From Diphasiastrum complanatum (lineage: Eukaryota > Streptophyta > Lycopodiopsida > Lycopodiales > Lycopodiaceae): a stretch of DNA of 64,000 nucleotides. The notes beneath the pieces were generated by a model. The model saw nothing but the letters and a program-made list of their open reading frames with translations. It ran no database searches and was not told the origin of the DNA. A program made the position numbers and the translations under genes. The stretch's first letter is position 1. Every line of letters begins with the position of its first letter. The stretch is taken from the NCBI GenBank assembly GCA_029204225.1, contig MU832076.1, positions 1 through 64,000 of the forward strand. Direction: 5' to 3'. Of the stretch, positions 19,601 to 39,816 are shown in pieces.

Positions 19601-20132
19601 ACTATTTTTGGCCACCAACCAGCTCTAATACTATGTGAAAATTCTAGATCCAAAGATCTCAGGCAAGAATTATTGCACTAACCACTGATTTATCTATGTT
19701 AAACAACTCATTCGCTAGCTTGCTAGGTTGATCAGTCATTAGAGGAGTTCTCAATATCAAAAAGACCCTTTGTAAAAATACTTTTATTTTTTTTCTTTAG
19801 TTTCGACCGTCATCAGGCCCAATCAAAATGCACAGATTTGAAATCTACGTAACGTAGTTCAAATTAACTAAAAAAAAAAAATGCAATATAGAAAACTTTG
19901 AAATTTGTGTCCGGGCAGCATGGACGTATCCCATTGGTTTCTTCTTCCTGTCCGACACATGCTAATCTGCCCGACGTCAATAAGTCAAGTTAAATTTACT
20001 TGACTATGCTGGTTAGTATAATGAAAATTTCTAACTATACTAGTTACAGTTATAGAAATATAGTATGTACAGTTACATAAAATATGGTATACGCAGTAAC
20101 TGTGACTATGTTGGCATTACATTAGATTAAAT
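19601..20132. other. No recognised gene
   Basis: AT-rich DNA with no domain-bearing frame. Confidence 0.4.
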
Positions 20133-21294
20133 GTGATACGAAAAATTGAAATTAAGTATCATATCAGAGAGATTTTTGGCGCCCAAGCTTTGAAAATAGC
20201 AATGGCAAGGAGACCCAGATCTACAATCGATTCTGTGATTCTTTACAATGAGAAAGATGGAGCTGATAACTGGAAGCCAACAAAACATATGAAGAACTCA
20301 TGGGTATTGCTGCATCCATCATCAAAGGGCAATTTTCGACAAAAGAAAAGAGCAAAAATGTGAATGGGAACCCGCACAATCACTTGCAAGAATATTAGAC
20401 ATGATTCACTCTGATGTTGGAAAGCTGCAATACAGAGGAAGATGTCCAAAGGAACTTGCAGATTGTGGTATCTATTTTTATGAATCATTATATACGCCAC
20501 AAACAGATGGATGTTTTGGCAAGCTCGAAGCAATTCCATTGCCTATCTTTCAAAGTGATGAGTGGCCTACTCCGGACAACATTGTTTCTGAATCCTTCAT
20601 ATGCAAGCTACTAATTGATATTAGAAATGCTATGAAGATAAGCATAGGCTCGAAAATTGTTCACCTAAGTTGGTTTATCTCATTACATATATTTGTTGAT
20701 TTTTTCTCGAGTGCTAGTGTTCGTAGGACACCAACTTTATTTGTTTGCAAGGATTTATCAGATGAGACTTTGTCAGATCTCATGGATCAAGGCTGGGATA
20801 GTAAAACAAATAATGACATAGAATGCAGGATTAAAAAGTCCTCAATGATCTTTCGTTATCATATCGAAAAGCAAATGCTCAGTCTCACATTTAGCTACTA
20901 GAGATACAAGAAAATTGAAGGTACATGGCTACCACTGGATCAAGATTTTGAACTAAATGGTCACACAAACCGAATGGAGATAAGCATTATCTACACTGAG
21001 GAATATTTTACTATGGTTGAGGTGGAAGAACATTGGAAGTTTGATTTTATCAGAACAGAGCTCATGCTATTACAAACCAATCTACCAACATATTTCAGAT
21101 TTATCATCAACGAAAGACTCGTAAGTACTTTATGTTTATTGCCATGTCAAAATAGAACAAAATAATAGACAATGTCATGATTTACAATAGCACATTCACT
21201 AATATTTGTCATGTCACAGATGAGAAAAAGACAGAAGCTGATAACGTGCTGCAAAGATCTACCTACAACAATCATCATTGTGGGAGAACAATAG
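20133..21294 (+). pseudogene. Unknown family A, copy 1 (decayed)
   Basis: I do not recognise a named family. Translations in 20,133-20,363, 20,368-20,901 and 20,902-21,120, plus a final small exon at 21,220-21,294, align in order with the second copy at 37.1-38.1 kb. Shared features are G(I/V)YFY, a GS(K/R)VY/VH segment, IRYHI...FSF and a C-terminal P-x-x-F-x-F-x-IN block. Both copies have their last intron after this block (GTAAGT donor) and end in a short basic exon (here RKRQK). Copy 1 has a frame change near 20,350-20,365 and an in-frame TAG at 20,899-20,901. The C-terminal block (LP-x-x-FRF-x-IN) loosely recalls ubiquitin-like modules, which is inference. Confidence 0.6.
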
Positions 21295-21489
21295 TTTCAA
21301 ATAAACTTTAGTACAAATCTGTGTATACACTCTTTCATTCAATAAATGAAAGCCCAATTTGGGCATCAATACATGTATTTTGTGCTCCCAAATTCATAAA
21401 ATGGAACAACATTTGATATATAAATGTATATTTTTCTATGAATTCTATACATGTATTTTTTTTCTATGCTATCTATATATGTTCTGATC
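21295..21489. other. Short AT-rich spacer
   Basis: Convergent 3' ends of the plus-strand family A copy 1 and the minus-strand peptidase remnant. Nothing else seen. Confidence 0.4.
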
Positions 21490-21831
21490 TTAATTTAGTA
21501 CTACTACATCATCCTTTGCACCATCATCAATAAAGGGAGGCTGAAGCCTTGCCCTAGCCAGTATACTCAGGATGATTTCTTGTCTGAATCTGTACACCTG
21601 GCTTGATGTGTACTCAGGAAGTGTAAACTGCAAAATAGAACATTCATGTATTAGTAATGGCTAAAAACATCAACAAAATAGAAAACTAATCATGATTCCA
21701 AAAATAAAAATAAACATAATTTATTACCTTAGAAATATCAACATTTTCTTGAAGGTTGAACCACTCAAAAAATAACTTGGCATTGTATAAGTGTACCACC
21801 CACAACTGAATGAATCATTTTGCTGTGGTGA
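21490..21831 (-). pseudogene. Ulp1-like (C48) cysteine peptidase C-terminus, decayed
   Basis: Two minus-strand exons, 21831-21728 and 21627-21490, have TTTTGCAG acceptors and a GTAATA donor. The first encodes PQQNDSFSCG, matching the Ulp1/SENP catalytic-region pattern Q-N-x(3)-C-G. The frame then shifts by one at that Cys-Gly and continues as WVVHLYNAKLFFEWF, a hydrophobic helix as expected. The second encodes about 45 residues ending in a stop. The catalytic His and Asp region is not found. Ulp1-type peptidases are SUMO proteases and are often carried by eukaryotic DNA transposons. The frameshift and missing N-terminus make it non-functional. Confidence 0.6.
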
Positions 21832-21912
21832 CTGCAAAATAATTTAGCACAAAAAAAATCAATTATCAAACAAAATGAATTAGAATGAAACAATTACATT
21901 AGAATATCGATT

Positions 21913-22392
21913 TCAACATGCCGGTTCAGGTTTCACAAAATCTGTGGTGTCTACGATCTTTGCTCTCTTTGGAGCTCTCTTGGGGGCACTCTGCTTCCTA
22001 GGACGCTTCGTAGGAAGATCAGTCCTATCTACAGGTGTTGGCCTGGGAGCAGAAGGCTGAGATACGTGCAACCTACAGAACCTATCCCTCATTCTCATCA
22101 AGATTTGAAAATCCTTGGGCATTATTGTGACTCTCTTGGAATGAATGGCAAGCAAAAATGAATCTCCAAAAAAAGGACTAAGGTAATCTTCAGCAGCCTC
22201 CTGAAGGCACCGAAGAGCACTGGGTGTAAATCTGACCAGCTGTCCGAGATCATTTCTTGTTATGTTTTGGACAGCACGGTAGAATGGAGCCCTTGGGATC
22301 AATAGCACAGTTGATCTTTGGTACTTGCGTATCTCAGAGAGCCACCTGCTGCGGTTGCACGTTCTATGTCTAGCAGGAGTGGTAATGGCCAC
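21913..22392 (-). CDS. Histone H3-like protein, short tandem copy
   Basis: An open frame of about 159 codons contains the whole H3 fold: EIRKYQRST (alpha-N), PFYRAV, a Leu-rich alpha-2 with LQEAAE, then AIHSKRVTIMPKD (loop 2/alpha-3). It stops soon after VKPEP, so it lacks the C-terminal extension of its neighbour. The first codon of the open frame is GTG, not ATG. A preceding acceptor (tcctcag) and a further upstream ATGGATAGG suggest a spliced first exon, but I could not phase it. It shares 638 bp without indels with 23,074-23,711. It may be a recent truncated duplicate or a pseudogene with no disabling lesion. Confidence 0.65.
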   Translation of the reverse strand: MAITTPARHRTCNRSRWLSEIRKYQRSTVLLIPRAPFYRAVQNITRNDLGQLVRFTPSALRCLQEAAEDYLSPFFGDSFLLAIHSKRVTIMPKDFQILMRMRDRFCRLHVSQPSAPRPTPVDRTDLPTKRPRKQSAPKRAPKRAKIVDTTDFVKPEPAC

Positions 22393-22560
22393 TGCAGGGG
22401 CTGAGGATGAGCCAAGAGAGAAGAAGTCCTTCCTGGTCTACTTTCTCCTATCCATGGATGTGTACTATGGAATAGCGGACTTGCGCGTGACGGGGAGGAT
22501 GAGAACAGAAGGGTGACAAAAATCTCACAGAGGACCGATATGTACGAAAGGAATGTATGG
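21923..22560. repeat. Left unit of a 638-bp direct duplication (pair at 23,074-23,711)
   Basis: It aligns to 23,074-23,711 at a constant offset of 1,151 bp, with about two dozen mismatches and no gap by eye (roughly 96% identity). It spans the 5' part of the H3-like gene and its upstream region. Confidence 0.9.
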
Positions 22561-22592
22561 TGCATAAAACAGGAAGAATCACTTAATATATC

Positions 22593-23543
22593 TTACTTGG
22601 TATGATAAGAAATGACCAGATACTTTGTTGCTGGTGTGAATCCACTTGTCAGACACTGTGACAATGTGTCATTATTCTTCTTGAAGGCCTGGAGCAGAAA
22701 ATTACTCAGCACCAACAACTCGTTTGATGAATCTCTTGCAATGTCAAATTGCAAGAGTGTTAGCCCGGACTCTATCACAGGATCACTGATAGAAGTCCGT
22801 CTGTCTTTGAGATCCAAGCAATCTAAAACTCTAAAATTAATACTAAAATCAAGTTCATCTAGTCTAAAACAAAAAGGAGTACCAATTTTATCTATAGCAT
22901 CCGATATGTCTTTCTCAAATCTAAGATACTCATCCGAATCTGTATATGTATAAAGAATTGGAGGAGGAGGAGGAGGTGGATGTGTAGTATCTACAAGAAT
23001 TAAAGCAATATCCAAAACAACTGTAGCTATATTTACAGCATTATCAACAACAGCGTTATCTACAATTGATTTTGGTTCAGGTTTCACAAAATTTGTGGTG
23101 TCTACGATCTTTGCTCTCTTTGGAGCTCTCTTGGAGGCACTCTGCTTCCTAGGATGCTTCGTAGGAAGATCAGTCCTATCTACAAGTGTTGGCCTGGGAG
23201 CAGAAGGCTGAGATACGTGCAACCTACAGAACCTATCCCTCATTCTCATCAAGATCTGAAAATCCTTGGGCATTATTGTGACTCTCTTGGAATGAATGGC
23301 AAGCAAAAATGAATCTCCAAAAAAAGGACTAAGGTAATATTCAGCAGCCTCCTGAAGGCACTGAAGAGCACTGGGTGTAAATCTGACCAGCTGTCCGAGA
23401 TCATTTCTTGTTATGTTTCGAACAGCACGGTAGAATGGAGCCCTTGGGATCAACAGCGCAGTTGATCTCTGGTACTTGCGTATCTCAGAGAGCCACCTAC
23501 TGCGGTTGCGCGTTCTATGTCTAGCAGGAGGGGTAATGGCCAC
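22593..23543 (-). CDS. Histone H3-like protein with long C-terminal extension
   Basis: The 316-codon frame carries an H3 fold at about residues 16-105: EIRKYQRST, LLIPRAPFYRAV, RFTPSALQCLQEAAE, LAIHSKRVTIMPKD. It is canonical-H3-like at alpha-3, but loop 1 is one residue longer than in canonical H3. The usual 40-residue N-terminal tail is absent. After the fold comes a basic stretch with PRKQSASKRAPKRA (131-144), then a proline run and an acidic, hydrophobic C-terminal domain of about 110 residues that I do not recognise. The frame opens at GTG 23,543. A tcctcag acceptor (exon from 23,551) and an ATG at 23,606 imply an unresolved first exon. It is divergent to the gene at 23,874. Nucleosomal use is unproven; a DNA-binding or mimic role is possible. 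Confidence 0.75.
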   Translation of the reverse strand: MAITPPARHRTRNRSRWLSEIRKYQRSTALLIPRAPFYRAVRNITRNDLGQLVRFTPSALQCLQEAAEYYLSPFFGDSFLLAIHSKRVTIMPKDFQILMRMRDRFCRLHVSQPSAPRPTLVDRTDLPTKHPRKQSASKRAPKRAKIVDTTNFVKPEPKSIVDNAVVDNAVNIATVVLDIALILVDTTHPPPPPPPILYTYTDSDEYLRFEKDISDAIDKIGTPFCFRLDELDFSINFRVLDCLDLKDRRTSISDPVIESGLTLLQFDIARDSSNELLVLSNFLLQAFKKNNDTLSQCLTSGFTPATKYLVISYHTK

Positions 23544-23873
23544 CGCAGGGGCTGAGGATGAGCCAAGAGAGAAGAAGTCCCTCCTGGTCTACTTTCTCCT
23601 ATCCATGGATGTGTACTACGCAATAGCAAACTTGCGCGCGACGGGGAGGATGAGAATAGAAGGGTGACAAAAATCTCACAGAGGACCGATATGTACGGAA
23701 GGAATGTATGGTATATCGGACCTGTGCGAGTTGAATATAACAGAAAGATATTAGTTCTGAAGAAACGCGCACAAGTGTGATACAGGGGGACACGTAGGCA
23801 GGTGTATCAGACCTGTGCGCATGAAAGGCGGTAGGTGGAAATTCGAGTGTGTGTACTTTTTTTGTTAGTTCAG
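23544..23873. promoter_or_regulatory. Divergent intergenic region between the H3-like and acidic genes
   Basis: This roughly 330-bp interval holds the presumed first exons and promoters of two head-to-head genes. It is GC-richer than its surroundings, and its left half is duplicated at 22,393-22,560. No clear TATA box was assigned. Confidence 0.35.
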
Positions 23874-25000
23874 ATCCCAGATGATGATGAAATTTTTGTT
23901 GCTGACCCTCCCTTTTCATCATCCTCCATTCAGTCAGCTATTAAGGACATCAGTCACTTTCTTATCGACACTCCTGATAAGGAAAGTGACTTTATAAATA
24001 TAAATACTGATTCTCTACGGGATTCATTTATTGGCCAAAATACATCTGCTGATGAATCCAACCCTACAAAGGATTCTAAATGTCTATTCAATTTGTCTGT
24101 ATATTATATTAATGACGATGTATATTTTACTACTGCTGATTTATGTAAGTTTTTTGACTATCGTGAAGAAGAGGTTCTATGTTTATTATCCGGCACAATT
24201 TCCGAATTCTCCAGCTTCGTAGATTTTGAAACATATGATCTTGTTGCTGGTATTGATTTTGATGATGAGGAGGGAATTATGACTGCTGAAGAATGCTTGA
24301 ATAAGACTTTCTCAAATATAACTGAGGATGGGCGAGGCAGACCATCCGATGAAGAATTCACGGCATTTCAATCCCATATGGGCTTCCCTCGTCCATCATT
24401 ATTGCATTTCACAGATGATTCCAGTTCAGTACGTGGTCATTATATTGATCATCCTGATCTGGTTGCTGCTGAAGATGAAGAATGTGTACGTGTTTAAACT
24501 TCCTTGCATTACGATATTTCTAATCATTGAATGTGTTTTTGCTAACAAATTTCCTATTGTAGGATGCTCTCATAATAGATGATTTTGCTGCGAGACGAGG
24601 TGGTTTCAGACAACATGCATCATCTTTCCAGAGGGATAGTGGACCTGGCCACTATCTTAGGCATTTCCTGAAGAATGAGATCTGTATTGCTCATTCCACG
24701 CTGAGCCCGGTCGAGGAGACTCTTATGATGGCAGTTAAAGCCTTATCATTTTACCTAGGAGGACATAAATTTGTAAAGACAAATAAGATCATTTTTGTCA
24801 AAAGATCTTATGTTTTGAACATTTTAGGCTTTACTGATGGGAATGTTCCTTTAAGGAGCTCCCATTATTCATTGTATTCCACTTATATTGAGCTTAGTGG
24901 AAATAAGAATAATGCACATCTATTAGATGCATACGCTAGCAGAGAATTTCTTCATGACAATACTGCCATAGAATCTGACACAAGATCTGATGATGAATAG
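23874..25000 (+). CDS. Unknown acidic protein, at least two exons
   Basis: Exons 23874-24485 and 24563-25000 join in phase (donor TGT|GTACGT, acceptor ATTGTAG|GAT), giving 349 residues to a TGA-independent TAG stop. A further 5' exon is implied, because the first exon opens at an acceptor (gttagttcag) rather than an ATG. The protein is rich in Asp, Glu and Ser. A globular segment reads DVYFTTADLCKFFDY, and the second exon contains YLGGHKFVKTNKIIFVKRSYVLNILGF. The first motif faintly recalls viral BRO/KilA-N proteins, too weakly to name it. No in-frame stops were seen. The strong acidity would suit a histone-binding partner of the neighbouring H3-like gene; this is speculation. Confidence 0.6.
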
Positions 25001-25204
25001 TTGACACTTTGTATTTTGGTATAATACAATCAATACATTTACATTGAGTATTTCTTCTTTCTTGTTCAATGAATTTGCAAAGCGATTCTGAACATGTCAT
25101 GATTTGATGATAATGATGATCTTGCACTCAACAATCATCTAATTTTCTCTTTCTGTATGAACTTGCATGCTTTTCTAAACTTGTTGTATTGTGTGGACTT
25201 TGTT

Positions 25205-26561
25205 ATATGTCAAATTTGAATTTTGCGGTAGAACCACTGAAACAATTGACAAATGTAGTTTCGGTTTTCATTGGTTCCTCCATGTTGTGTATTTCGATGA
25301 AATGCTGCTTGTGCTTGCCAATGTGGCTTCTCCATCCCTTGTGATGACCATACACTCAAGCTTCCATATGTATTTGCAAAAAATGTTGTATGATCTCTTA
25401 GTATGTGATGCATATGTCAAAATCATAATGTTAGTCTTATGTTTGGATCTAAATATATATTTAAATTTGAAAGCATTTTAAGAATTTAATACTAACCATG
25501 TAATGAGTGATGTGATCATCTCCCCATGCTTTTGATACTGCATTAACAAACTCGACACAAGTCCTTTGGACAGCTTGCTTATCAATATCAGAGTATTTTT
25601 TTTCTTAAAATAGCAATCATACTATCAAGCTTTTTCCATACATCAACTTTTAGTACTCTGATTTTGTCGTCTTTCTCGAAGTCCTGAGTAGCAGCAATAA
25701 TATCTGTCCAGACTGAGTGTTGAATATTAGAAGCCCTACCAGTACGATTTGATAGGAAATGACGTGCTTTTGCTCCTCCTATGTTGGCTTAGTTGGCATG
25801 TTCCCATTCTTTCCTGAAAGCTTTTCATCTTTTTGAATTTTGACATGTCCTTTATGGAGTCTTGATTTTGATAAAACATCTTCTAATCGAGAGATAACTT
25901 CCTTTGCTAATGATGCTGGCTTAGTATTCCAAGCAAAAACTATATGAAGATAAATGATCTTTTCTATTAATCTAACTTCTGCACGAAGAGTGCAAACATG
26001 CACATTTTGTAAGGGGATAGGCAGCACAGGCTTCCAGTTTGGATCTGCATATTCTCTAGTAATTACTGTGCTCCTAGTTACATCTTTTGCCATTTTCATA
26101 CAGTACAAACAAGGGTGTTTTGATGTAGCACCGTGAGATACATTATACATACATTTTAATGTTTTCAAATCACCTGCTAAGTGCCATTCAACATTGAAGT
26201 CTCCAACTCCTAGAACATTGAGAAGTCCTCCATCCATATGGTCCTTGATGATCCTAGGATAAGATGTCCTTGAGAATATCCATGATAATATATCATTATT
26301 CTCTTTTAGAACTTGTCCAAAAAAATTAATCAGACTTAATTTACAATGCATTAATACTATTTAATGAATGTAATGTAATAATGAGGCTAGTTACCTGAAA
26401 CACTGCCAACCACCATATATCATTTTCTGGCTGGACACTAAATCTGAAATCTTCTTGGTTCTCTGTTTGTGATAGAGCACCATTCATGAGAGTTATACTA
26501 ACCCTCTCCATCTTCTGCCCTTTCACAATTTCTGACTCATCTAATTTAAGTACTATGATTA
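25205..26561 (-). pseudogene. Transposase-like gene, 3' half (interrupted by Copia-A)
   Basis: This continues the minus-strand gene from 33,623. From the insertion point the frame reads LDESEIVKGQKMERV, then WWLAVFQ with a GTAACT donor near 26,396. A second block (26,300-25,785) carries NVEWHLAGDLKTLK and HGATSKHPCLYCM. A third, in another frame (about 25,785-25,600), continues GGAKARHFLSNRTGRAS, and a final part near 25,400-25,210 has WSSQGMEKPHW and NTQHGG. The pattern of an Asp after a hydrophobic strand, GD-x-K, then CxxC matches uncharacterised transposase-like proteins abundant in invertebrates, which probably have an RNase H-type fold. At least two frameshifts are present. I cannot name the superfamily. 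Confidence 0.6.
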
Positions 26562-26566
26562 TTTTG
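26562..26566. repeat. Left target-site duplication of Copia-A (TTTTG)
   Basis: TTTTG directly precedes the 5' LTR and is repeated at 32,428-32,432 after the 3' LTR. Confidence 0.95.
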
Positions 26567-27219
26567 TGTGAAAAATTGTCAACTAGTAGTATTTTCCTAA
26601 CTTGAGATTTTGTAGGCCTATGGCCAAATAAAAGTTAGAGATAGGTTCATACATGTATGTAGAGGCCCAAAGTATGTGTACACTACTTTTGAGGTCACAT
26701 TAATTAGAGGAGGTCGAGTGTGGAGCTCTTCTATTGGCTCATAATTTGGTGCATTCCTATTTGACCAAATTTCTAGGTATATGGGTGAATCCTATTGGAC
26801 CCCAATTTTAGCCTATCATAAGACAAGTGGCCAAGAGGCACTATGGCTGCTATAAATAGCCATCTCCACGAGTATGTACACATCTCATTTTCATTCTATT
26901 GAATGAATGTTATGCTCTTTGAAGGTCCATCTTCTTCTCTCTCACTTTTTTGTTCATATCTTGCATTCTAGCCACTAGAATTGTGATTTCTTTGTTGCTA
27001 TGGCTTCACACGTGTGAAATGCAGGTTGTAGGCTCTGAAGTACGGACAGGGACAGCAAGTTTCTGTTTGTGGAAGCTTATGATCAGATTTTGATGTTTAG
27101 TTGATGTTTAGTATGCTTAACATCACAATTTCTATCATTTTTTCAATCTAGATGTGCATAACTTCCATGGCCAAGATCTTTATGAAACTTTAGCATCTTT
27201 TGGATCTGAGTTTTTCACA
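26567..27219 (+). repeat. 5' LTR of Copia-A
   Basis: 653 bp from TGTGAAAAATTG to TTTTTCACA. It contains a TATA box (tataaata, 26,851-26,858) and a cacacgtgtg palindrome at 27,008-27,017, a G-box-like core found in several LTRs of this window. Confidence 0.97.
26851..26858 (+). promoter_or_regulatory. TATA box of the Copia-A LTR promoter
   Basis: tataaata lies mid-LTR at a normal position for the U3/R boundary. The identical copy in the 3' LTR is at 32,059-32,066. Confidence 0.7.
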
Positions 27220-27231
27220 TGGTATCAGAGC
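27220..27231 (+). other. Copia-A primer-binding site
   Basis: tggtatcagagc lies immediately after the 5' LTR and is complementary to the 3' end of plant initiator Met-tRNA, as is usual in copia elements. About 600 bp of untranslated leader follows. Confidence 0.9.
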
Positions 27232-27828
27232 ATTAGGCGGCCAAATGTGCAGGTTTTGCCAGATTTAGAAGAGATTTGTGGGCGAGTTTGCTTTTGTAGC
27301 ATTCCAATCAAGTTTCTAGCTAAAAATCTTGTTGATTTATGTGTAGAAATTGGATCTTTGTGATCAAAACATCATTTGTATGCATTTCAATTGAAGTAGG
27401 GCGAATTCCCTCTGTACTTATCAGAATAAGGAGACAAAAATTGTTTTGGAAAGAGGGAGATGCAAGATCCAACAAGATCCTATTAGTTTTCCATTCTAGC
27501 ATATAGTTTTTTGATTCAATTTCTTGCTTCTTCATGTCAAAAACTTCAAAATTGATGTAACCCTCTGATTTTCAGTTTGCTGAATGATTCAAGAGTGTAT
27601 TTCAATCTTAGGAGTGAGGGAAAAGCAAGTATATTGAGGTTTGGTCTTGGTTTGATCAAGAAATCATAAAACTAGTGGCTAAAATTAAGGAAAAAGTGAG
27701 GAAAAGAGAGAAAAAGTAAGGTTTTAGGTTCCAAATCTTTGTGATTTCTTCTTGTGTTTCATTTGTTGATTCAAGAGAGTGCTTAGTGCATTGGAACAGG
27801 TCAAAGATCAGAGATCAATCATTGCAAC

Positions 27829-30800
27829 ATGGCTACAAATGGAGGCTACATGTTGGAAAGCAATGATAGGCTTACCTCCCTCAACTATTCTACTTGGAAA
27901 GTAAGGATGGAGTCTTTGCTTGAGATGAATGAGTTGATGGATATTGTTGTAGGTGTGGAGGAGAGACCTTTGGCACCTCAAGAACAATTGAGGTATGACA
28001 AGAGGGCAAAGAAAGCCCTTCACATGATCAAGATGAATGTGACAAATGAGCTTATCAAAGAGGTTGGTAAGTGCACATCATCTAGTGAAGCTTGGGAAGC
28101 CTTGAAGAAGGTTTATGAATCCAAGTCTACTTCTAGAGTGTTGACTTTAAGAAGGCAAATCTTTTCTTGTATGCAAAAGAAGAGTGAGAATGGACATGCT
28201 TTTGTTTTGAGAGTTAAAGCATTGAATGATGAGTTAGCATGCATTAATGATGGCATAAATAATGAGGAGCTTGTTCAAGTGATTCTCAATGGCTTGTTGG
28301 ATGATCATGCTAATCTTGTTCAAAGTTATGCTATCCAAAAATGTTTACCAAGTGTTGGAGACTTGCAAGAGGTCTTGTTGGCTGAAGAATTCAGGTTGCA
28401 AGCAAGAGTGGGAGCATCTTCTACATCTCAAGGAGGAGAAGAGGAGGCAATGTTCTCTAAAGGCAAGTTCAAGGGCAAAGGTAAAAGCAATTGGTCTAAA
28501 GGGCAAGACCAAGGTGAGCACTCTACTTTTGGCAAAAAGAAGGATAGATCTAAGCTAAAATGTTTCTATTGTGGAGTCAAAGGGCATTTTGCTAGTGATT
28601 GTTTTAAGAAAAAGAGGGATCAAGGGGAAAAGCAAACCAATCTAACTATTGATGAGGGTGGGGATGAGCTTCTTTCAAATGATGCTTTTGTTATGTCATC
28701 TTGCTTGTTGGCTAATCATGGAGACATTGATCCTTGGTGGATTGATAGTGGAGCCACTTCTCATATGACATATCATAAAGAGTATTTTTCATCTTTAATG
28801 GCATTTGATGGTGATAGGAAGGTAATCTATACCGCAAATGATGGTGAGTGTGCAATCAAGGGGATTGGCACAATTCCTATTTCACTTTCTACAAATAGGA
28901 ATATAGAATTGAAAGATGTTTTGCTCATTCCATCCATTACCAAGAACTTACTTAGTGTAAGCCAAATGCTTGACAAAGGATTCAAAGTTGAGTTTGATGG
29001 TGATGCTTGCTTGATCAAAAAGGGGTGTAGTATCATTGCAAAAGGGAAAAGGCAAGGGAAATTGTTCAAGCTTGATGCATGTGTTGTTGCTAACCAAGTT
29101 GGATGCATGGCAAATGAACAAATGTCAATTCAAGAGGTATGGCATAAAAGGATGGGACATCTCAACTACAAGGCCTTGGAGGTAATAGCCAAAAAGGAGG
29201 TAGTAAGGGGACTTCCCAAGTCTCTTACTTGCTTGAATCATGTTTGTGAAGAATGTGCTTTGTCTAAATCACATAGATTGCCATATACTAGATCTATATC
29301 TAGATCTAAGATGCCTTTTTCTCTCTTGCATTCGGATATTCATGGTGTTACTACAATTAGCAATGGAGGTGCTAAGATGTATGTAACTTTCATTGATGAT
29401 TTTAGTAGATTTTGTTGGGTTTATCTACTAAAGAGCAAGGATGAGGTGTTTGATGTGTTTGTCAAGTTCAAAGTTGCTATTGAGACTCAATTTACAACCA
29501 AAATCAAATGCTTGAGGAGCGACAATGGTGGTGAATACATTTCTAACAAATTCAAAGCCTTTTGCGATGAGCATGGGATCAAGAGGGAGTACACATGTCC
29601 AAGAACACCACAACAAAATGGAGTGGCCGAGAGGAAGAATAGAACCTTGTGTGAGAGTGCAAAGGCAATGAGATTGAATGCTAATCTTCCTAAACCTTTT
29701 TGGAGTGATGCTTTGTTGTGTGCAAATTTCCTATGCAATAGATGGCCAAGTGTTGTATTGGAAGGAAAAACCCCTTTTGAAGCTTTGTTTGGTACGAAGC
29801 CTAATGTCAAGTTTCTAAGAACTTTTGGATGCATTTGCTACTTCAACATTACTCTTGATGATAGAACTAAGGAGGATCCATCTTCAAGAAAGGGCATTTT
29901 TGTTGGTTATAGTGAAGTAAGCAAAGCATATAGGATTTATGTTCCTTCAATCAAGAAAGTGTTCACAAGTAGGGATGTCATTTTTGATGAAGGTAACATT
30001 CCAAAAGTTGTTTCAAGTGATGATGGTGTTGTTGCAACTAATGTGCTTGATGACAATGGAGTTGATGACACATTGGATGTGGATGTTGAAGAAGCCTCTT
30101 CAAGTCAAATTCCAAGGAGAACTCCAAGGCATAAAGTGAAACCCTCAAGGCTCACTTATGATGGCAAAGGTAAGCAAGTGGTGGATGGATCCAACTATGC
30201 TTTCCTAACTTCTTTTGATGTACCTTCATGTGTAGATGAAGCAAGGCAAGAAGAGGAATGGATCCAAGCAATGGATCTTGAGTTTGAAGCACTTATGAAG
30301 AACAACACATGGAGATTGGTGGAGCTTCCAAAGGGCAAAAGTGCAATTGGATGCAAATGGATCTTCAAGGTAAAGACAAATCAAGATGGATCTATCAACA
30401 AGTTGAAGGCAAGGTTGGTGGCTAAAGGTTATGCTCAAGAGCATGGCATTGACTATGAGGAAACCTTTGCACCCGTGGCAAAGATGGTGAGCATAAGAGT
30501 AATCATTTCCCTTGCAACTCTTTATGGATGGGATCTTTGGCAATTAGACATTTCTAATGCTTTCTTGAATGGTGATCTTGAAGAGGAAGTCTACATGGAG
30601 CAACCCGAGAGCTATGTTTCTCATAGCAAGCCTAATCATGTGTGTTTTCTACAAAAAAGTTTGTATGGTCTTAAGCAAGCACCAAGGAGTTGGTATGCTA
30701 GGCTTAACTCTTTTCTACTTTCTCAAAACTTCACTATGAGTGAGTATGATCATTCACTTTACTTTAGAATTAGTGCTAATGATGTTACAATCCTTCTAAT

Positions 30801-31779
30801 TTATGTGGATGACATTATTTTAAGTGGAGGGAACAAGGAAGATATAGAAGATATCAAGAAAGCACTAAAAAAGGAATTTGAAGTGCATGATCTTGGTCTT
30901 TTGAGCTATATCTTAGGAATAGAAGTAATTAGAACTTCTCAAATCACTTTTATTTCACAAGAGAAGTATGCTATTTCTATTCTCAATAGATTTCATATGG
31001 TAGATGCAAATCCTATTGATACACCTATGGAATCACATGTAAAGCTAACTATAAGAGGTAATGAAAGATCCTTCGAGGACATTACTCTCTATAGGAAGCT
31101 AATAGGTTCTCTTATATATCTAACCATCACAAGACCTGATTTATCTTATTGTGTTGGTAAATTAAGCCAATTCATGCAAGATCCTAGCATAGAACATTGG
31201 AAACTAGGAAAGAGGATCTTGAGATACATCTCGGGAACAAAAGATTTTGGCATTGTTTATAGAGGCTCATCACCTAACTTATTTGGTTTTTCAGATTCAG
31301 ATTTTGCAGGAGACCTTATGGATAGAAAATCCATAAATGCACATGCTATTTTCATAGGTGATGGAGCTATCTCATGGATGTCGAAGAAACAAGCAACTAT
31401 ATCACTTTCTTCTAGTGAGGCCGAGTACAAAGCTTTGACATCATGCACAAAGGAGATGGTGTGGATCAAGAGGATGATTATGGAGCTTCATTTGCTGGAT
31501 TTTTCAGAGAGTCCAATCATCTTTTGTGACAACCTTTCAGCCCAAAGTCTAGCAAGCAATCCGGTTTTCCATGCAAGGAGCAAACATATCGAGGTGGCTT
31601 ACCATTTTGTGAGAGAACAAGTGTTGGCAAAAGAGATCAAGCTTGAACATGTCCCATCAAAGGAATGTGTGGCTGATATCTTTACCAAAGCATTGGGAAA
31701 GGACTTATTTTTCAAGCATAGAACAAGTCTTGGTGTACTTTCTAAATCTATGCTAAAACTAGTTGAAGAGGGAGTGTGA
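27829..31779 (+). CDS. Ty1/copia Gag-Pol polyprotein, intact
   Basis: 1,316 residues in one frame. Order: gag with a UBN2-type N-terminus (about 1-230), a CCHC zinc knuckle (245-258, CFYCGVKGHFASDC), aspartic protease (WIDSGATSHM, catalytic Asp at 306), GAG-pre-integrase (HKRMGHLNY), integrase with Asp 503, Asp 565 and Glu 601 (D,D35E spacing), reverse transcriptase (YVDD at 992-995) and RNase H ending with a VADIFTKAL motif. No stop or frameshift occurs. The stop codon lies 3-5 bp inside the 3' LTR. It carries out reverse transcription and integration of the element. The first ATG gives a normal gag start. Confidence 0.97.
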   Translation: MATNGGYMLESNDRLTSLNYSTWKVRMESLLEMNELMDIVVGVEERPLAPQEQLRYDKRAKKALHMIKMNVTNELIKEVGKCTSSSEAWEALKKVYESKSTSRVLTLRRQIFSCMQKKSENGHAFVLRVKALNDELACINDGINNEELVQVILNGLLDDHANLVQSYAIQKCLPSVGDLQEVLLAEEFRLQARVGASSTSQGGEEEAMFSKGKFKGKGKSNWSKGQDQGEHSTFGKKKDRSKLKCFYCGVKGHFASDCFKKKRDQGEKQTNLTIDEGGDELLSNDAFVMSSCLLANHGDIDPWWIDSGATSHMTYHKEYFSSLMAFDGDRKVIYTANDGECAIKGIGTIPISLSTNRNIELKDVLLIPSITKNLLSVSQMLDKGFKVEFDGDACLIKKGCSIIAKGKRQGKLFKLDACVVANQVGCMANEQMSIQEVWHKRMGHLNYKALEVIAKKEVVRGLPKSLTCLNHVCEECALSKSHRLPYTRSISRSKMPFSLLHSDIHGVTTISNGGAKMYVTFIDDFSRFCWVYLLKSKDEVFDVFVKFKVAIETQFTTKIKCLRSDNGGEYISNKFKAFCDEHGIKREYTCPRTPQQNGVAERKNRTLCESAKAMRLNANLPKPFWSDALLCANFLCNRWPSVVLEGKTPFEALFGTKPNVKFLRTFGCICYFNITLDDRTKEDPSSRKGIFVGYSEVSKAYRIYVPSIKKVFTSRDVIFDEGNIPKVVSSDDGVVATNVLDDNGVDDTLDVDVEEASSSQIPRRTPRHKVKPSRLTYDGKGKQVVDGSNYAFLTSFDVPSCVDEARQEEEWIQAMDLEFEALMKNNTWRLVELPKGKSAIGCKWIFKVKTNQDGSINKLKARLVAKGYAQEHGIDYEETFAPVAKMVSIRVIISLATLYGWDLWQLDISNAFLNGDLEEEVYMEQPESYVSHSKPNHVCFLQKSLYGLKQAPRSWYARLNSFLLSQNFTMSEYDHSLYFRISANDVTILLIYVDDIILSGGNKEDIEDIKKALKKEFEVHDLGLLSYILGIEVIRTSQITFISQEKYAISILNRFHMVDANPIDTPMESHVKLTIRGNERSFEDITLYRKLIGSLIYLTITRPDLSYCVGKLSQFMQDPSIEHWKLGKRILRYISGTKDFGIVYRGSSPNLFGFSDSDFAGDLMDRKSINAHAIFIGDGAISWMSKKQATISLSSSEAEYKALTSCTKEMVWIKRMIMELHLLDFSESPIIFCDNLSAQSLASNPVFHARSKHIEVAYHFVREQVLAKEIKLEHVPSKECVADIFTKALGKDLFFKHRTSLGVLSKSMLKLVEEGV

Positions 31780-32427
31780 AAAATTGTCAACTAGTAGTAT
31801 TTTCCTAACTTGAGATTTTGTAGGCCTATGGCCAAATAAAAGTTAGAGATAGGTTCATACATGTATGTAGAGGCCCAAAGTATGTGTACACTACTTTTGA
31901 GGTCACATTAATTAGAGGAGGTCGAGTGTGGAGCTCTTCTATTGGCTCATAATTTGGTGCATTCCTATTTGACCAAATTTCTAGGTATATGGGTGAATCC
32001 TATTGGACCCCAATTTTAGCCTATCATAAGACAAGTGGCCAAGAGGCACTATGGCTGCTATAAATAGCCATCTCCACGAGTATGTACACATCTCATTTTC
32101 ATTCTATTGAATGAATGTTATGCTCTTTGAAGGTCCATCTTCTTCTCTCTCACTTTTTTGTTCATATCTTGCATTCTAGCCACTAGAATTGTGATTTCTT
32201 TGTTGCTATGGCTTCACACGTGTGAAATGCAGGTTGTAGGCTCTGAAGTACGGACAGGGACAGCAAGTTTCTGTTTGTGGAAGCTTATGATCAGATTTTG
32301 ATGTTTAGTTGATGTTTAGTATGCTTAACATCACAATTTCTATCATTTTTTCAATCTAGATGTGCATAACTTCCATGGCCAAGATCTTTATGAAACTTTA
32401 GCATCTTTTGGATCTGAGTTTTTCACA
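31775..32427 (+). repeat. 3' LTR of Copia-A
   Basis: 653 bp, apparently identical to 26,567-27,219, and followed directly by the TTTTG duplication. It provides the termination region for the element. Confidence 0.97.
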
Positions 32428-33623
32428 TTTTGCCATTCACCTTTTCATAGGTTATATCATAGAATGTGATGATGTATCTCAGCAAGTAATTTAGATCAAC
32501 AAATAAATTGTTTGATGAATTATAGAATATCGATCTTCCATCAGTTTCATACACCTCCTCAATATGAAATGGAGTTCCAGTGATCTTATGCATACCTATG
32601 TTTAATGTATCCCTCTCTTTCTTCAAGTGATATGTCCTAGGGATTGGGACTTTTTTAATTTGAACTTGCTTAAAAGCTTCTCTAATTAGTTTAAATATTG
32701 TTGCATATGCTTCCCTGCTAATACCCGCAAAATCACAAGCATCCTGAACTATAGTCTTATCTAAATTTTTTTTAATGTCCACCATCAAAGACTCTGCAAT
32801 TTTACACTTTACATTTGAAATCCTATTGTTCATCATGATACGCTCAGTGGATTTGCAAGTCAATATTGTGCCCAATGACATTCCTAGTGAAGCATTGTCT
32901 TTAATATTTCGAGGAGCTACTAATGCAGATCTGCAAAAAAAACAGATAGTTAACAGAATATCACCATAGCTGAAATTAAATCCAAATGTCATTGAAAAAC
33001 TTACAAAAATCAGAATATGCTTACTTGAATGCACGGATCCTTCTATTTTGATAACCTCCTTTTGAAAGCGTTTGAATATCCTTGCAACTTTTTCACTTTC
33101 GCTTCTTACTTTCAGCCTTCTTCTTTGCCAAATCCACATCCTTCGATAATTGTAAGTTTTCAATACGAATAGACTATAAGAATGATTGCATTTGCTCTAG
33201 TTCTGATTTGATATCGATTGTTATCTTCTGTAATGATTCATTATTTTTTTTAAGTTGTTCATTTTCTTCTAATGTCTTTTGGAGATGAAAATCTCTATTT
33301 TGACAATAAGAGGATATCCGAATTAACTCACCTTCTAAAAAGTGAACTTTATTCATATAAATTTGTTTTCCCTGGTTCTGCAATCTTTCACAATATCCTA
33401 GTAATCCACTATGTCCATTGCATATCCATGTAACTAAATGAGTTATTGAAGAGAACTTGGGATGTGTCAAAGTGCTTGGATCTTGTGGATATAATGTTCC
33501 ATCTATCCACAAATCCAAGTTTTTTTTTCCTTCTGCCCTGTAACGAGAATGATCCTCAACAGATATTTGAATTCCTTTGCCTCCTCTTCTCTGCAAAGGT
33601 GCCAAATCAATAGGGATATCCAC
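32428..33623 (-). pseudogene. Transposase-like gene, 5' half with two nonsense codons
   Basis: From 33,623 the frame encodes about 149 residues with a predicted coiled coil (QKTLEENEQLKKNNESLQK). In the same frame lie TAG (33,174-33,176), 26 further sense codons, TGA (33,093-33,095), then a segment ending at a donor (exon end 33,025). The next exon starts at 32,930 and continues ALVAPRNIKDNAS, then runs to NGK at the Copia-A insertion. After removal of Copia-A and one TTTTG copy the frame continues uninterrupted into 26,561. Both stops predate or are independent of the insertion, so the gene was already decaying. It pairs with 25,205-26,561 as one locus. Confidence 0.65.
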
Positions 33624-36622
33624 ATGCAGATGATAGAGAAATCAGTTGTATCAAAGTACTATGACCAGATTCTATGAAGCAAAGCAAAGTACTAATCTTT
33701 GATTATATTATATACTATGTACGATCAATCCAAACTCCATGCTTGTAAGCTTGATTCAAATTTGAAAATGCCGCTCATTTTTTCATTCCAATAGGTAGTT
33801 GGCGCTCATATTTCCATTCCAAAGTAATGATGATCTATTGAAAATATTGCCCTTTTTGTAACCAATGGAGGGAATATTTTTGAATTTAGTAAGTTATACT
33901 GCGAACTGTTAACAGTTTTTAACTGTGACTATAGACACTGTGGTTAGATCATTGGGAGTTGGGGAGGCCTTGGGAGTGGTGTGGGCAAGCAAATAAACAA
34001 TATTGTTTTTTAAATTTTGATATTTTTCTATATCCTACATGGCATTCCTTAAAGCATCTTTTTGATATTGAGAACTCCTCTAATGAACACTTACCAAATG
34101 GAAATAGAATCAAAAGATAATCAAATGATACTTAAATTTGATATTAAGCATCTATTTATTGTCTATAAAATAGTAAAATCATAGTTAATTCATCACCTAT
34201 ATGCACATCAATCAAAACACACCACAATTCTTACACAAATATAAAAGATAGCCAAAATGAGATGATAATATTCCTCCAAAAACTTTTCCAAACCAGATAT
34301 AGACAAAGGATTCACTTTTCTGAATAGGAACTCATGCTGACTACAAAAGTACTTAAGAGGCTGGTGATTTGCATACACTATAGACTTACTACCATACAAG
34401 TATTGTCTCCAAGTTTTAAGCTAAACATGCTACCACAACTGCTCAAAATGTCGAGTCAAGCCTGGCCCCTAATGATGACACATTTTTTGATGTTGTACCA
34501 TTGAAGATGTTGTACTTGAAGATGATTTAGTGAATGAAGAGCCAGGATCAGAGGATACGGTAGTTGTCTCAATTCCATTAAGAGCAGCCAGTGCGTCAAC
34601 AACAACATCACTAGATTCAATAGATGTCCAAGGAATTTATCAACACCTTGGCATTCTGCTTATCTAGTTGCTACAAGAGAAACAAAACCTCGGTGATCGC
34701 CTATACAAGCTAAGTATAGAAGGGAAATTACAAGCACAAGAGTACATAGGTTAAAAAATGAGCTGGAGGTGACACAATAGCATGAAAGGGCTGCACAAAA
34801 ACAGTTACAACAGGCCCAAGAAATGGAATTGACCTGGTGATCCTACATGCAACAAATTCAAAAGAGTTTAATGAATGCCAGTGGTCAAGTTTCCCAAGCA
34901 GTGCAACAACAAGTGCCCTTATTACAAGCACAAGTCAACATATAAAACTGTTGTAGAGAAGGAGCATCTTAACAAAATGGTAGCAGATCTTACTATTGAA
35001 TGTGATGAGATCCTCGTAGCTCCACTATCAATTCTAGAGTACCTGACACTCCACAACTTATTGGTCCTTCAGCAAAGGGTGGCCAGGTACAAAATGACAC
35101 TAGTGAAATTCCAATCCTAGTTTGAGAGTTACAAGGGGTTTGATGTTGTAGCACTCCAAAAGGCAAAAACTGTATTACAAGCATAGCAACGACAAAGTCC
35201 CATTCCAATAGTGGTAATCTCACCCCCACCACTTCCACTAGATACCAACAAGAAGGGCCAACCCATGAAAACTTCATAGAATCAAGGGCCTGATGCTGGA
35301 GAGACAAGACTAGAGGAAGTAGCACCATCTAGCATGGCATCGACCCCATCAAGGCTTGCTTCACGAGCCTTTGCAAAGCCAAAGACGTCGACCAAAGAAA
35401 TAAATGAATTATTAGCTATCCATACCCATGAGTCTTCACGTGGTGGTTGGTCGCTAAAGTTCACGGCGGAAGAAATCAAGAACAAAGAGATCCAATCCAT
35501 ACCAGCACTGGATGATCAGCCGGCTTGGCACTTATGAATCTTTGAGAAAAATCCAAAGGCCCTCACACATTACGCATAAATCCATGGTATGTTCTCATGT
35601 CATGATGCAAGAAGTGTGGGCAGACTTTGGTCCAAGGGTCAAAATAAAAACTCCGATATGGTCAAAGATAAAAGCACCACATGGCTAGGCGACAAATGTG
35701 GACTTCATCAAGGCCTTGCGGACCAATGGAAAGGAGAGCATGCATTCACTCGATCCCACAATAATAAAAAAAATAGCCGATTATGCAACAGGTCTAGCAT
35801 ATTTAGTTGGCGTAAAGACCACTTGGGATAATTGCATGTCTCCCATTGCATTTAAAAAATCAAGATTTCGTCTTAGATGCAGTGTTGGATCAATTACCAT
35901 TCGCACAATTTGTCATGTATTTTAGTACATCCATGCTTATACAAGCAAGATAATATCCAATGTAAGCTTTGTAGGCCCAAAAGGAGTTATTAGCTTTAAC
36001 AACAAGGCGATTCCGTCAATAGGCCCTTCAAAGTAACTAATAAGGATAATAGGCCAATAAGGGCCCAATGTAGTTTAAATAATACTTAACAAGGGATAAC
36101 TATCCCTCAAGATAGTTATGTTCAGTTCAGTAAGAGCATTGTCTATAACTAGGCAAGAGATGTCAATTTGTGAATCTTTTGGCTCATTTGCAAGTGAGAG
36201 CTTTTAGCTTCCTTGTGAATGTGAGCCATAGGGATCTCCATTGCTAGGTCTCATGTGCCCTATCCACATGAATCAATGCTCATGTTCATATCTTGTACTC
36301 TTTCTTTCATTACTAATGTGATTCTATGCATTAGGGCCCTTTTTGGACTCAAAAAGGGCCTCTTCACTAATCATGATTAGTTTTAATGACGACACGTGTG
36401 CCAATAAAAGAATGACAATTGAGCAGCAATGGCCCATATGACATGGCAAATTGCATGGTGAAGATTAAATCAAGTGTGGGACCACTAAGTACACCTCTAG
36501 CATTAACCCTACATCAACTCTACATGGGAGGCTAACTACATATGTCACATAGCTAACTAGACCCAACATACCTGCACCTAATGGCTAGTTTATCTACTCA
36601 TTCAAAATATTCAACCTATACA

Positions 36623-36653
<31 letters not shown>

Positions 36654-36870
36654 AAATGACCTCCCACTCTACTCATTCTCCATATTGACATAGGCAATCT
36701 TTCCTCTGTATTATACACTCTCTAACTCAAGACCAGACACATTGTCTTTTCATATATCATGACTTCTAGTCAACAAGAAGAACAAAGATTCAATTAAACT
36801 TCATTGTTGCACCAATCAAAGACTCCAATGACCATTGGGTGCCTACGACATTTTTGACTCTTAATTGAGT
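33624..36870. other. Spacer with weak Gln-rich coding remnants
   Basis: No intact gene. About 34,460-35,130 (+), read with many stops and frame changes, gives a Gln-rich coiled-coil-like segment (VSQAVQQQVPLLQAQV). About 35,330-35,530 and 35,690-35,925 (+) give short open frames without domains. These may be one decayed gene of unknown type. A (CT)n tract lies at about 36,627-36,653. Confidence 0.35.
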
Positions 36871-37116
36871 ATATATGCAATCCTCTGGTAAAGGAATTCA
36901 TAGGCTTGCAAAGAGAAAATGTGACAACAAAGAGCACCATTGGAGAGGAAGAATTCACGAATTCAAAGTCGATTGCAATGGAGATTACCTAGCCAGAGTG
37001 CAACATGTCTACATGCGTAGAGATATTTTGTTGGACACGGTAGTTGTTGATAGAAAATACTTTCGCATTGTAAGTCTTACATCTTTGAATGTCAGAGATA
37101 TTTTACTTGTAAATTA

Positions 37117-38060
37117 TTGTTGCTTCATTCTATTACCTCTTGTCCAGATGTTTTTCCTTCAGATAGCTATGACTGGCAGCACGTAAAATCGTTTACGGGA
37201 AAGTTCTCTACAATATATGCAAAATATGGAGTACTAATATATGATGGGCTCAAGTCTTCTGCGACCATAAGATTGGGTGTTTACTTTTACGATCACATGT
37301 ATGAAGTTCCAAAGAAGAACTTTGGGACTGGCAAATTATTGTTTCTTTTGGAGCCTACAATCGATTCTCACGATTGGCCTTGTGTTGATGAATTGACCAT
37401 CGAATTGACAAAATTCCAACTCGCCAAAGAGATTACAATGAATATGAAGCCAACATTTGGATCCAAACGTGTTTACACTAGTGTCAGCATGCCTATCGTT
37501 GTATTTGTTGCCATATTTAAAACAATACCATTTAGAAAAAGAAATACATTATGGGTATGGAAAGCGATAGAATCCTCATTGTTGGACAATGTATCTACTT
37601 CTTGGGACTCATGGAATGTAGATCACAAAGGTGATTTAATAAGGTGTGATATTTGTCATGAGACGATGACAATAAGATATCACATTGCACGCCAAACGTG
37701 CTCCTTCAGTTTCGTTTATAGGCGGTTCAAGTCTCACGGTCGATGGGATAGCTTGGATGTAGAGACGAGACATCAAGAATTTGAACTATCCATCCATATG
37801 CCAAATGATGAAGGGCGGAAAGTCTGTGTTAATGGTGAATGGAGTCTGGAAGATGTACGGGCTATGGTTGGTTTAATATATGCTGATGTGCCCACAAATT
37901 TTGTGTTCACTATCAACGGACAAATCGTAAGTGTAAACAATAAACGTGCTTCCAAATTTGTAAATGGCTGTTGAACACATATATAAAATGAATTTTAATA
38001 TCGATATGGTGGTGTTTGATTTTTCAGATCAGGAGACGCACAGAAAAACACCAAAAGTGA
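37117..38060 (+). CDS. Unknown family A, copy 2
   Basis: A main exon (to 37,926) and a terminal exon 38,028-38,060 join at GTAAGT / tttttcag. The readable protein starts around DVFPSDSYDW and ends RRRTEKHQK. It aligns along its length with the decayed copy at 20.1-21.3 kb, including the conserved last intron. It contains a Cys/His cluster (IRCDICHETMTIRYH) that could bind zinc, and a C-terminal WSLEDVR, then P-x-NFVFTINGQ block. An upstream frame at 36,875-37,069 with a GTAAGT donor may be the first exon, but I could not phase it to any acceptor, so the 5' end is unresolved and a lesion there is possible. Function unknown. Confidence 0.55.
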
Positions 38061-38550
38061 GCATCATTTTTAGATTTGGTCACCGTAAAAATAATTGAAC
38101 TATGAGATGCTCTTATGTACTAGCTTTAACTAATAACATTGATCTATTCGATGGGATTTCATCAAAAATTTGGTTCTATCGTTTCCATGTTTGTTAGGGC
38201 ATGAGCTATGGTTTGGTTTGATATGCAATTGCAATGTAAATGTTTGGCTAGACATTTTTCATAAGAAATTGTTAATAACATGTTTTGAAAATGTATAGAA
38301 TTTCATTGTGCTTACTTTACTATTTTTAAACAATCGAGAGATCTTTTTGGAATGCCTGCTATAATTGGAAAGGCACACTATATAAGGGTGTGTGGGTCCC
38401 CATTTTGCCATTTCATCCTTAGTGTCCGAGAGCTTCCTTTGTTTTTCATAGGTTGATATCATCCTTCTATGCTCACACAAGTGCAAATTAGTGTCATTAT
38501 TGCAATTCCTATACATTAGTACTCTATTATATCTGCATGGCGACCTAGTT
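38061..38550. other. Spacer
   Basis: AT-rich intergenic DNA. No coding frame supported. Confidence 0.4.
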
Positions 38551-38551
38551 T

Positions 38552-39610
38552 ATGGCACGTATGAAACAAACATCAAGGAGGAATCCAAGGGAAACAATGT
38601 TATTGCACCAAGCCACTTTACAAGCAATAGAAGCACAGAAAAGGTGCTCGAGGAGTACGAGTAGGAGCAAAAGTAGCAGCATTGAACCTGTGGCATTGAA
38701 AATGGACCAGAATCAGGATGAGTGGGCAACAATGGATGATCCTAGGGAGGTTCCCATGGATTGTGAGCAGGTGCAGGGGCAGGAGCAGGGGCAACAACAT
38801 GTGGCAATGGAAGAGCTTGGGTAGCAGCAAGCAGCTATGGATGAGCAGGGGCAGGAGCAGGGGCAGCAACAACCACCTCTAGATGAGCAGTAGATGGCCA
38901 GAGCAGTAGAGGATGTCCTACTGCATGATTTTGGTGTGAGGTCAGTGCTGAAAAGCCCCTCTTCAACATAGAGCCAGCGCGAAGCCACTCAGGCTTTTCT
39001 GAATAGTGAGGTAGCTGCTTCTAGGCCGATTCCCAATGATTTCCTTGGGATCTTTGACGATCAGGGTCTCAAGAAGAGGTGCCTCTTGATGGCTTTGTGG
39101 TTTGTTCGTCAGGAGTCGGAGCAGCTTCAGGGGACTCCACTCCGACACAATTACTCGGACATGTGCAAGGGCCTGTAATGGGGCCCATGATATCCTTGCT
39201 CGTCGGCTTAGACCAGACACCCCACACAGAAGACGTTGGGGAGGCTTCTCAGCATGTCAAGCCCACATCACGGCCGAAATCTAAAGTTGTTCGTCAAAAG
39301 AGAGGTCACTCGAAGCCTCGACGCCTTCCGCATACCATCCCTCAATCACAGCCACAGCCGGAAGCTCCCCAGGTGCCTCGAGATCAGTCAGCACCAGAGG
39401 TGCCGCAGGACCCCCCCACGGGACCCTCCCATGCAAGATGAGGCAGGTCCTAGCCAGCCAGCAACACGGAGTAGGGCAGCCAGACCGCCACCACCCCGGC
39501 AAGGCAAGGTCCTCAGAAGGATGCAGCCTCCGCAACCACGCCGCCAAAGACATGGACATGTTTTCCAAGAGATATGTGTAAGAAGTACTTTGTGGGATTG
39601 GAAAGCTTGT
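38552..39610 (+). pseudogene. Decayed Gln/Pro-rich protein with an H3-tail-like start
   Basis: The first frame (38,552-38,824) begins MARMKQTSRRNPRE and becomes Gln/Gly/Glu-rich with short tandem repeats (gcaggggcaggagcagg). Stops follow. A second stretch (about 38,910-39,180) reads REATQAFLNSEVAASRP and KKRCLLMALWFVRQESEQLQ. A third (39,079-39,441) is Pro/Gln/Arg-rich. Frames switch several times, so no intact protein exists. Such architecture (basic tail, charged repeat, Pro-rich) is common in plant transposon ORFs, but I cannot name it. Confidence 0.45.
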
Positions 39611-39816
39611 TAACTTACCAATATATAATCTAAATGTTGTATGTGAAAAGTCTACTTACTAACATGATGTACTACTTGGTGTTGTAGCATTTCTTACAAA
39701 CCACACTAGCATCTATGTTTCATATATCTCTATAAACATGAATTTAAAATGGTGTGACAACATGGTATATGCCATTAGCCAAAAAAAAATCTCTTAAAGT
39801 TTTTTATATTTGAGGT

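Follow-up and report, generated by a model that had tools for sequence, protein, structure and literature searches.

DNA demethylases, histone methyltransferases, and anti-silencing factors are all among the known cargo of transposons (PMC12730594, PMC13317346), and the papers cited here describe several systems that resemble the element reported below. This element lies in a 64,000-nucleotide stretch of the genome of Diphasiastrum complanatum (Lycopodiaceae; assembly GCA_029204225.1, contig MU832076.1, positions 1 to 64,000 of the forward strand), which we call the window; in open copies, one of its genes reads as a histone H3 fold joined to a Ulp1/C48 protease domain. A plant DNA transposon with an accessory Ulp1-domain protein is already described in Arabidopsis, where VANDAL elements carrying KIU, a VANC protein with an Ulp1 domain, induce hypomethylation of their relatives (PMC13317346). 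In KIU, however, the partner of the Ulp1 domain is VANC, whereas here it is a histone, and VANDAL is a MULE without terminal inverted repeats (TIRs); Pfam gave no match to a MULE transposase or to VANC in the genes of our element, for VANC as far as Pfam covers that domain. Ginger1, like our element, is a TIR element with introns and a C-terminal Ulp1 (or OTU) protease domain (PMC2836005), but its Ulp1 domain sits on a Gypsy-integrase-like transposase, whereas here it sits on a separate H3 protein that matched the Histone and C48 families of Pfam and no integrase core. Fungal transposons with a TET/JBP dioxygenase and oomycete transposons with a SET methyltransferase have been read as cases of counter-silencing (PMC12730594); they likewise carry a chromatin-acting protein, but theirs modify DNA or histones, whereas here a histone itself is encoded. 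Our search of open-access papers found no histone-encoding transposon, and in a 2026 review of gene capture by plant transposons the word "histone" is absent and "CENH3" occurs twice, both times in one reference (PMC13317346).

An H3 fold joined in frame to a Ulp1/C48 domain

Two open frames on the minus strand of the window, one of 174 amino acids (positions 21913-22437) and one of 331 amino acids (positions 22593-23588), match the Pfam Histone family PF00125 with E values of 8.4e-26 and 1.2e-27, respectively, and the longer one also matches a solved H3 chain in PDB (2.8e-23). Both align with H3 from alpha-N through alpha-3, with a loop 1 that is one residue longer than that of H3. The original prediction, made from the letters of the sequence, had claimed this fold and this loop and had proposed a profile search against histone families; the search and the alignment bore it out on both counts. 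What it took for two genes is one gene in tandem duplication, the two copies being 96.2% identical across 639 bp and the downstream copy truncated. It also held that the N-terminal tail of H3 was replaced, yet the product begins with MDRRKQTRR, which on direct reading has R2, K4, Q5, T6, and R8 (H3 numbering) in common with ARTKQTAR, and a copy from a sister family begins with exactly MARTKQTAR.

Codon 6 is TAG in both window copies, so that MDRRK is followed by a stop; among ten other aligned loci, this codon encodes Gln in eight and His in one. The tenth (C8_46.8, locus L019) also reads TAG there, which makes three such copies in all, perhaps through common descent with the window copies or through a repeated C-to-T change.

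The architecture of the full product was read in a copy on contig C7, where GT-AG borders and the frame delineate four exons and a protein of 470 amino acids composed, in this order, of the MDRRKQTRR start, the H3 fold, a basic linker, and the Ulp1/C48 protease domain. Pfam matched Histone (PF00125) at residues 27-123 (1e-27) and Peptidase_C48 (PF02902) at residues 316-442 (1.1e-10; 42.2 bits for a cut-off of 20.7), and the C48 part matched yeast Ulp1 at 4.6e-4. An addition of about 200 residues after the fold, forming a new domain, had been predicted: the extension exists, but its length in the spliced product is about 345 residues, and its domain is the known Ulp1/C48 fold, though one fused to a histone. 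In the window, matches to the product cover residues 1-328 and 387-470, and exon 2, which carries the catalytic His of the protease, was not found there.

We read the catalytic residues at 15 loci and in the window, 16 copies in total, and counted over the copies that cover each place. The His of the C48 domain is present in 13 of 13 copies, three of which have a stop at the adjoining next residue, the Gln in 11 of 11, and the Cys in 9 of 12. Residues of the H3 fold that contact DNA or lie at the H3-H3' interface are mostly kept across 11 copies: H113, R116, D123, and T118 in all 11, R83 in 10, and R69 and R72 in 8, while R49, R63, C110, A114, A127, and I130 are changed.

Ends, copies, and insertion sites of the element

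A search of the host genome (1.74 Gb in 5176 contigs) with the 331-amino-acid frame yielded at least 121 scored matches with 78-100% identity, counting the window and starting from 9617 first-look candidates; some of them are perhaps assembly duplicates. Most of these matches span the whole frame, C-terminal part included, and many carry stops. Ten loci, compared together with 20 kb of surrounding sequence, have in common a block with sharp edges and the 35-bp inverted repeat CATTAGAGGAGTTCTCAATATCAAAAAGACCCTTT at both ends. Both TIRs are present in the window and at 7 of the 15 loci fetched; within the fetched stretch, the remaining eight show a single end, an inverted fragment, or neither end. 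Six of the seven complete loci outside the window hold an element of 8.0-9.3 kb, and the seventh measures 14.2 kb with an insert. The window element measures 14.3 kb because of the tandem duplication and the insertion of a Copia retrotransposon. This Copia insertion, with its open frame of 1330 amino acids, is very recent, as its 655-bp long terminal repeats (LTRs) are 100% identical.

At none of the eight complete insertions do the junctions show a direct repeat (3 bp or longer) that could represent a target-site duplication. In an empty-site comparison of eight joined flank pairs, one match was usable, a second having fallen within its own locus: the joined flanks of locus L032 aligned over 599 positions, at 79% identity, with a related Copia in the window. 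The alignment crosses the junction with neither an extra nor a missing base, and the reading frame of this Copia continues across it. The element has the inverted ends and dispersed copies of a TIR DNA transposon and, at the insertions examined, lacks the target-site duplication of most known superfamilies. The Spy group of PHIS transposons is likewise described as transposing without target-site duplication, but Spy prefers AAATTT (PMC4482050), which was not seen at the eight junctions here, and gene 1 of our element matched no transposase in Pfam.

The idea that a mobile element carries the H3 gene, put forward in the original prediction, is supported by these TIRs together with the dispersed genome matches. 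The same prediction also raised the possibility of a viral carrier. Viruses are known to encode histones, and a histone of viral or proviral origin, of the giant-virus or virophage kind and persisting in the genome, would fit a unit of about 9 kb with several genes and a cysteine protease; in addition, a piece of gene 4 aligned with the adenovirus E3 family of Pfam, below threshold (E value of 0.12; 12.9 bits for a cut-off of 35). The inverted ends, the many dispersed copies, the introns deduced from splice sites, and the resemblance of the fold to plant CENH3 all speak against such an origin. Moreover, one scan of viral contigs returned 11 pattern matches, none of which was confirmed as a relative, and the frames scanned with Pfam gave no capsid, polymerase, or packaging match. 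We consider a viral source very improbable.

Selection on the H3 fold

Ratios of nonsynonymous to synonymous substitution (dN/dS) were pooled over 120 pairwise comparisons among the 15 loci and the window (91 for the catalytic part of C48). Since 14 of the 15 loci were chosen from stop-free genome matches, counts of open frames are not representative of the family, and the pairs are not independent. The pooled dN/dS is 0.17 in the H3 fold, 0.38 in the N-terminal tail, 0.51 in the linker, 0.33 in the first part of C48, and 0.36 in its catalytic part; an earlier set of 11 copies (55 pairs) had given 0.17, 0.61, and 0.35 for the fold, the linker, and the C48 part, respectively. The other genes of the element range from 0.46 to 0.72. 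The H3 fold is under purifying selection.

A separate feature of exon 1 of the H3-C48 gene across copies is that dS, the synonymous component, reaches 0.39 in the H3 fold, above both the 0.17-0.25 of the remaining parts of the gene and the 0.07-0.13 of genes 1 and 4. Shuffling of modules between lineages is perhaps the cause.

H3 variants in sister families

A divergent sister family of the same superfamily (family 2) is represented in the window at positions 36327-39613 (plus strand), where its own H3-variant gene is broken before the fold. In the family-2 copy L034, the same gene begins with MACTKQTARRNP, and a piece of gene 1b is 42% identical over 152 residues; a search of L034 with the H3-C48 protein gave no match, and the histone fold was later found at other family-2 loci. 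With rice CENH3 as the query, the host genome gave at least 150 scored matches (of 5560 candidates), namely, 13 of canonical H3 type and 137 other H3-fold matches, among which are members of the family first found in the window. Of these 137 listed noncanonical matches, 34 have one of the 129 listed matches to family-2 gene 4 within a distance of 8 kb, compared with 0.16 expected; all 34 are on the strand of gene 4, and 26 of them lie 1.30-1.52 kb downstream of it.

One family-2 gene comprises, in a single frame, the MARTKQTAR start, a long tail that is rich in Gln and Pro and contains one TAG, and the H3 fold. At the five family-2 loci that were read (L035, L036, L039, L042, and L043), the frame ends right after the fold and has no C48 domain. 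A third group of H3 genes, possibly element borne, starts with MAHTKQTS at L038 and has a basic C-terminal extension at L037. Four proteins scanned from family 2 and the third group matched Pfam Histone with E values of 3e-24 to 1.5e-28.

The data on selection and on the sister family also bear on passive gene capture, in which a piece of host CENH3 or H3 and a piece of a C48 gene would hitchhike without function. Plant transposons do pick up gene fragments (PMC13317346), and many of the genome matches are interrupted by stops. A passenger fragment would hardly be expected, however, to show a dN/dS in the fold that is a third of that in the linker, to maintain its frame across diverged copies, and to have a counterpart at a fixed place and on a fixed strand downstream of gene 4 in a sister family. 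Passive capture thus appears quite unlikely to us.

Origin of the H3 part

Seven positions at which three plant CENH3s all agree with one another but not with H3 were used as diagnostic. The element has the CENH3-type residue at five of the seven (63P, 65A, 75T, 85T, and 89L), one or two of the 11 copies deviating at some positions. In a tree with family 1 alone, the elements group with plant CENH3 at 83/91; with all three groups included, these stand together on one side of the tree at 63/20. We favor, without regarding it as shown, a plant CENH3-type histone as the most likely ancestor of the H3 part. Alpha-3 had been described at the outset as not centromeric-like; it is H3-like, as stated, but the broader implication is doubtful given the five diagnostic residues and trees that lean toward CENH3 without firm support.

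With plant CENH3 and canonical H3, the element protein shares the histone fold, many contact residues, and an ARTKQT-like start; it differs from them in being element borne, in having about half of its residues identical, and, in family 1, in bearing a C-terminal protease. Canonical H3 is recognized by a near-invariant sequence and a full tail, whereas here the tail is kept at its first residues only and 47-48 of 87 residues are identical to H3.1 in the three copies compared. A retrocopy recently derived from a normal host H3 gene, which the original prediction had named as one of its refuting cases, would account for the presence of the fold in a host that has normal H3 genes (at least 13 matches, one of them read as canonical H3). 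This identity to H3.1, the fused C48 domain, the downstream introns, and the many diverged copies rule it out.

The CENH3-type residues also invite an explanation in which a CENH3-like histone steers the element to centromeric chromatin, is loaded there, or provides a kinetochore-like retention. The 137 listed noncanonical matches are clustered, with 31 pairs closer than 1 Mb (10.7 expected) and 5 closer than 100 kb (1.1 expected), and six of them fall within 0.85 Mb at C15:31.0-31.9 Mb, possibly a centromeric or a nested repeat region. The matches are nevertheless scattered over 39 contigs, the CENH3-specific residues at positions 87 and 131 are absent, and simple nesting of repeats would cluster the matches too, which makes centromere seeking unlikely.

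Other genes and neighboring features

Four genes lie between the 35-bp inverted ends (Table 1). In gene 1, both Asp residues and both Cys of a C(2)C motif are present in 10 of 10 copies, the first and second His of an H(4)H motif in 11 and 12 of 12, respectively, and the Glu in 12 of 12, uncovered rows being set aside. The order D, D, C(2)C, H(3-4)H, acidic residue is given for the CMC clade (EnSpm, Mirage, Chapaev, and Transib) in PMC12730594, and gene 1 has the corresponding C(2)C and H(4)H between the second Asp and the last acidic residue. From this motif and its context, gene 1 is a candidate transposase gene. Pfam returned sub-threshold lines only for genes 1, 2, and 4, and no domain could be assigned to genes 2 and 4.

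Table 1. Features of the window that belong to the H3-C48 element or to its sister element
Feature	Positions	Strand	Remarks
Whole family-1 element	19737..34085	- (H3-gene orientation)	14.3 kb; 35-bp TIRs at both ends; boundaries as in genomic copies
TIR, gene-strand 5' end	34051..34085	.	CATTAGAGGAGTTCTCAATATCAAAAAG...; 2 differences from the pattern
TIR, other end	19737..19771	.	Exact pattern match
Gene 1, candidate DDE transposase	25497..33641	-	Pieces 33174-33641, 32426-32932, 26395-26565, 25497-26360; split by Copia
Copia retrotransposon inside element	26566..32428	+	655-bp LTRs 100% identical; open reading frame 27787-31779
Gene 2	23814..25000	+	MASSSGSSRDS... in another copy; two exons; N-terminal part not found here; no Pfam match
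H3-C48 gene exon 1, upstream tandem copy	22597..23606	-	H3 fold at about residues 36-125; TAG at codon 6; donor GTAAGA by reading
Second, truncated tandem copy of exon 1	21913..22455	-	Codon 6 likewise TAG; abuts downstream element sequence
Remains of exons 3-4, H3-C48 gene	21493..21843	-	Residues 387-470; PQQNDSFSCG region and C terminus; exon model from C7 copy
Gene 4	20202..21123	+	MARRPRSTIDSVILYNEKDGADNWKP...; in-frame stop; family-2 homologue 31.6% identical
Family-2 gene 4 (sister element)	37174..37929	+	Homologue of family-1 gene 4, 31.6% identical
Family-2 H3-variant gene, tail only	38549..39613	+	Starts MARMKQTSRRNP; decayed; similarity to L039 ends before histone fold; by-eye comparison with L039 and L035

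Elsewhere in the window, two frames on the minus strand (positions 56940-58616) match DUF7869 with E values of 1.6e-43 and 2.5e-4, the latter below the cut-off, and represent a further transposon-type gene. Long open frames without a Pfam match at positions 5059-6845 (minus strand) possibly belong to a normal host gene. Judging from the Copia elements and from a plant-type canonical H3 at L041, the host is apparently a plant.

A transposon that would dock its own histone in chromatin

The H3 gene belongs to a mobile element, it is joined in frame to a C48 protease domain, and its H3 fold is under selection. Based on these results, we propose that the element-borne H3 variant docks in chromatin and that the fused C48 domain acts there in a deSUMOylase role, a reading of the sequences as a whole to which we assign a probability of about 0.6. 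The H3 fold would pair with host H4, and at the element or its target it would be incorporated into chromatin or dock there. The docked H3 would bring the C48 domain to that place, where it would strip SUMO from silencing or repair proteins, and this removal would help the element to escape silencing or to transpose.

Several observations weigh against parts of this proposal. The exon model was drawn from GT-AG borders and frame. The place of the likely catalytic Asp of the C48 domain is occupied by Asn in 14 of 14 readable copies, a pairing taken from the alignment with Ulp2 and shifted in two other alignments; if correct, it may leave room for a reduced or purely SUMO-binding activity. In the H3 fold, R49 is Ser in 11 of 11 copies and R63 is Pro in 10 of 11. 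Structure prediction of the fold with its extension, a check proposed from the start, did not help, as the AlphaFold confidence (pLDDT) was 33 for exon 1, too low to show a fold, and 31 for gene 4, likewise too low to use. The residues at diagnostic positions 87 and 131 are H3-type, the grouping with CENH3 weakens to 68/53 in the tree with three groups, and holding the elements with canonical H3 gives a p-AU of 0.059. The host's own CENH3 was not found in our search, the two candidate matches being H3s of family-2 elements; the host CENH3 gene likely has introns. As for the remaining genes, Pfam matched no transposase family to the exons of gene 1, scanned piece by piece, and stops interrupt most covered copies, open frames being present in 2 of 10 copies for gene 2, 2 of 6 for gene 1b, and 2 of 12 for gene 4; therefore, no fetched copy was shown to be autonomous.

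More tentatively, a superfamily of plant DNA transposons might have taken over a CENH3-type histone as a core gene with which it builds or marks its own nucleosomes, and one of its families might then have fused a SUMO protease to this histone, so that the chromatin of the element would come with its own eraser of silencing. A histone is an unusual cargo for a transposon and suggests a jumping gene that makes its own chromatin protein. The H3s of these elements are also a possible source, or a possible trap, of centromeric histones. With an H3 variant naturally fused to a deSUMOylase-type domain, the element offers a testable system for the role of SUMO in transposon silencing. If our proposal is true, a histone-encoding transposon kept by selection, with H3 genes also in a sister family, would mean that mobile elements can act on the chromatin of their host at the level of the nucleosome.

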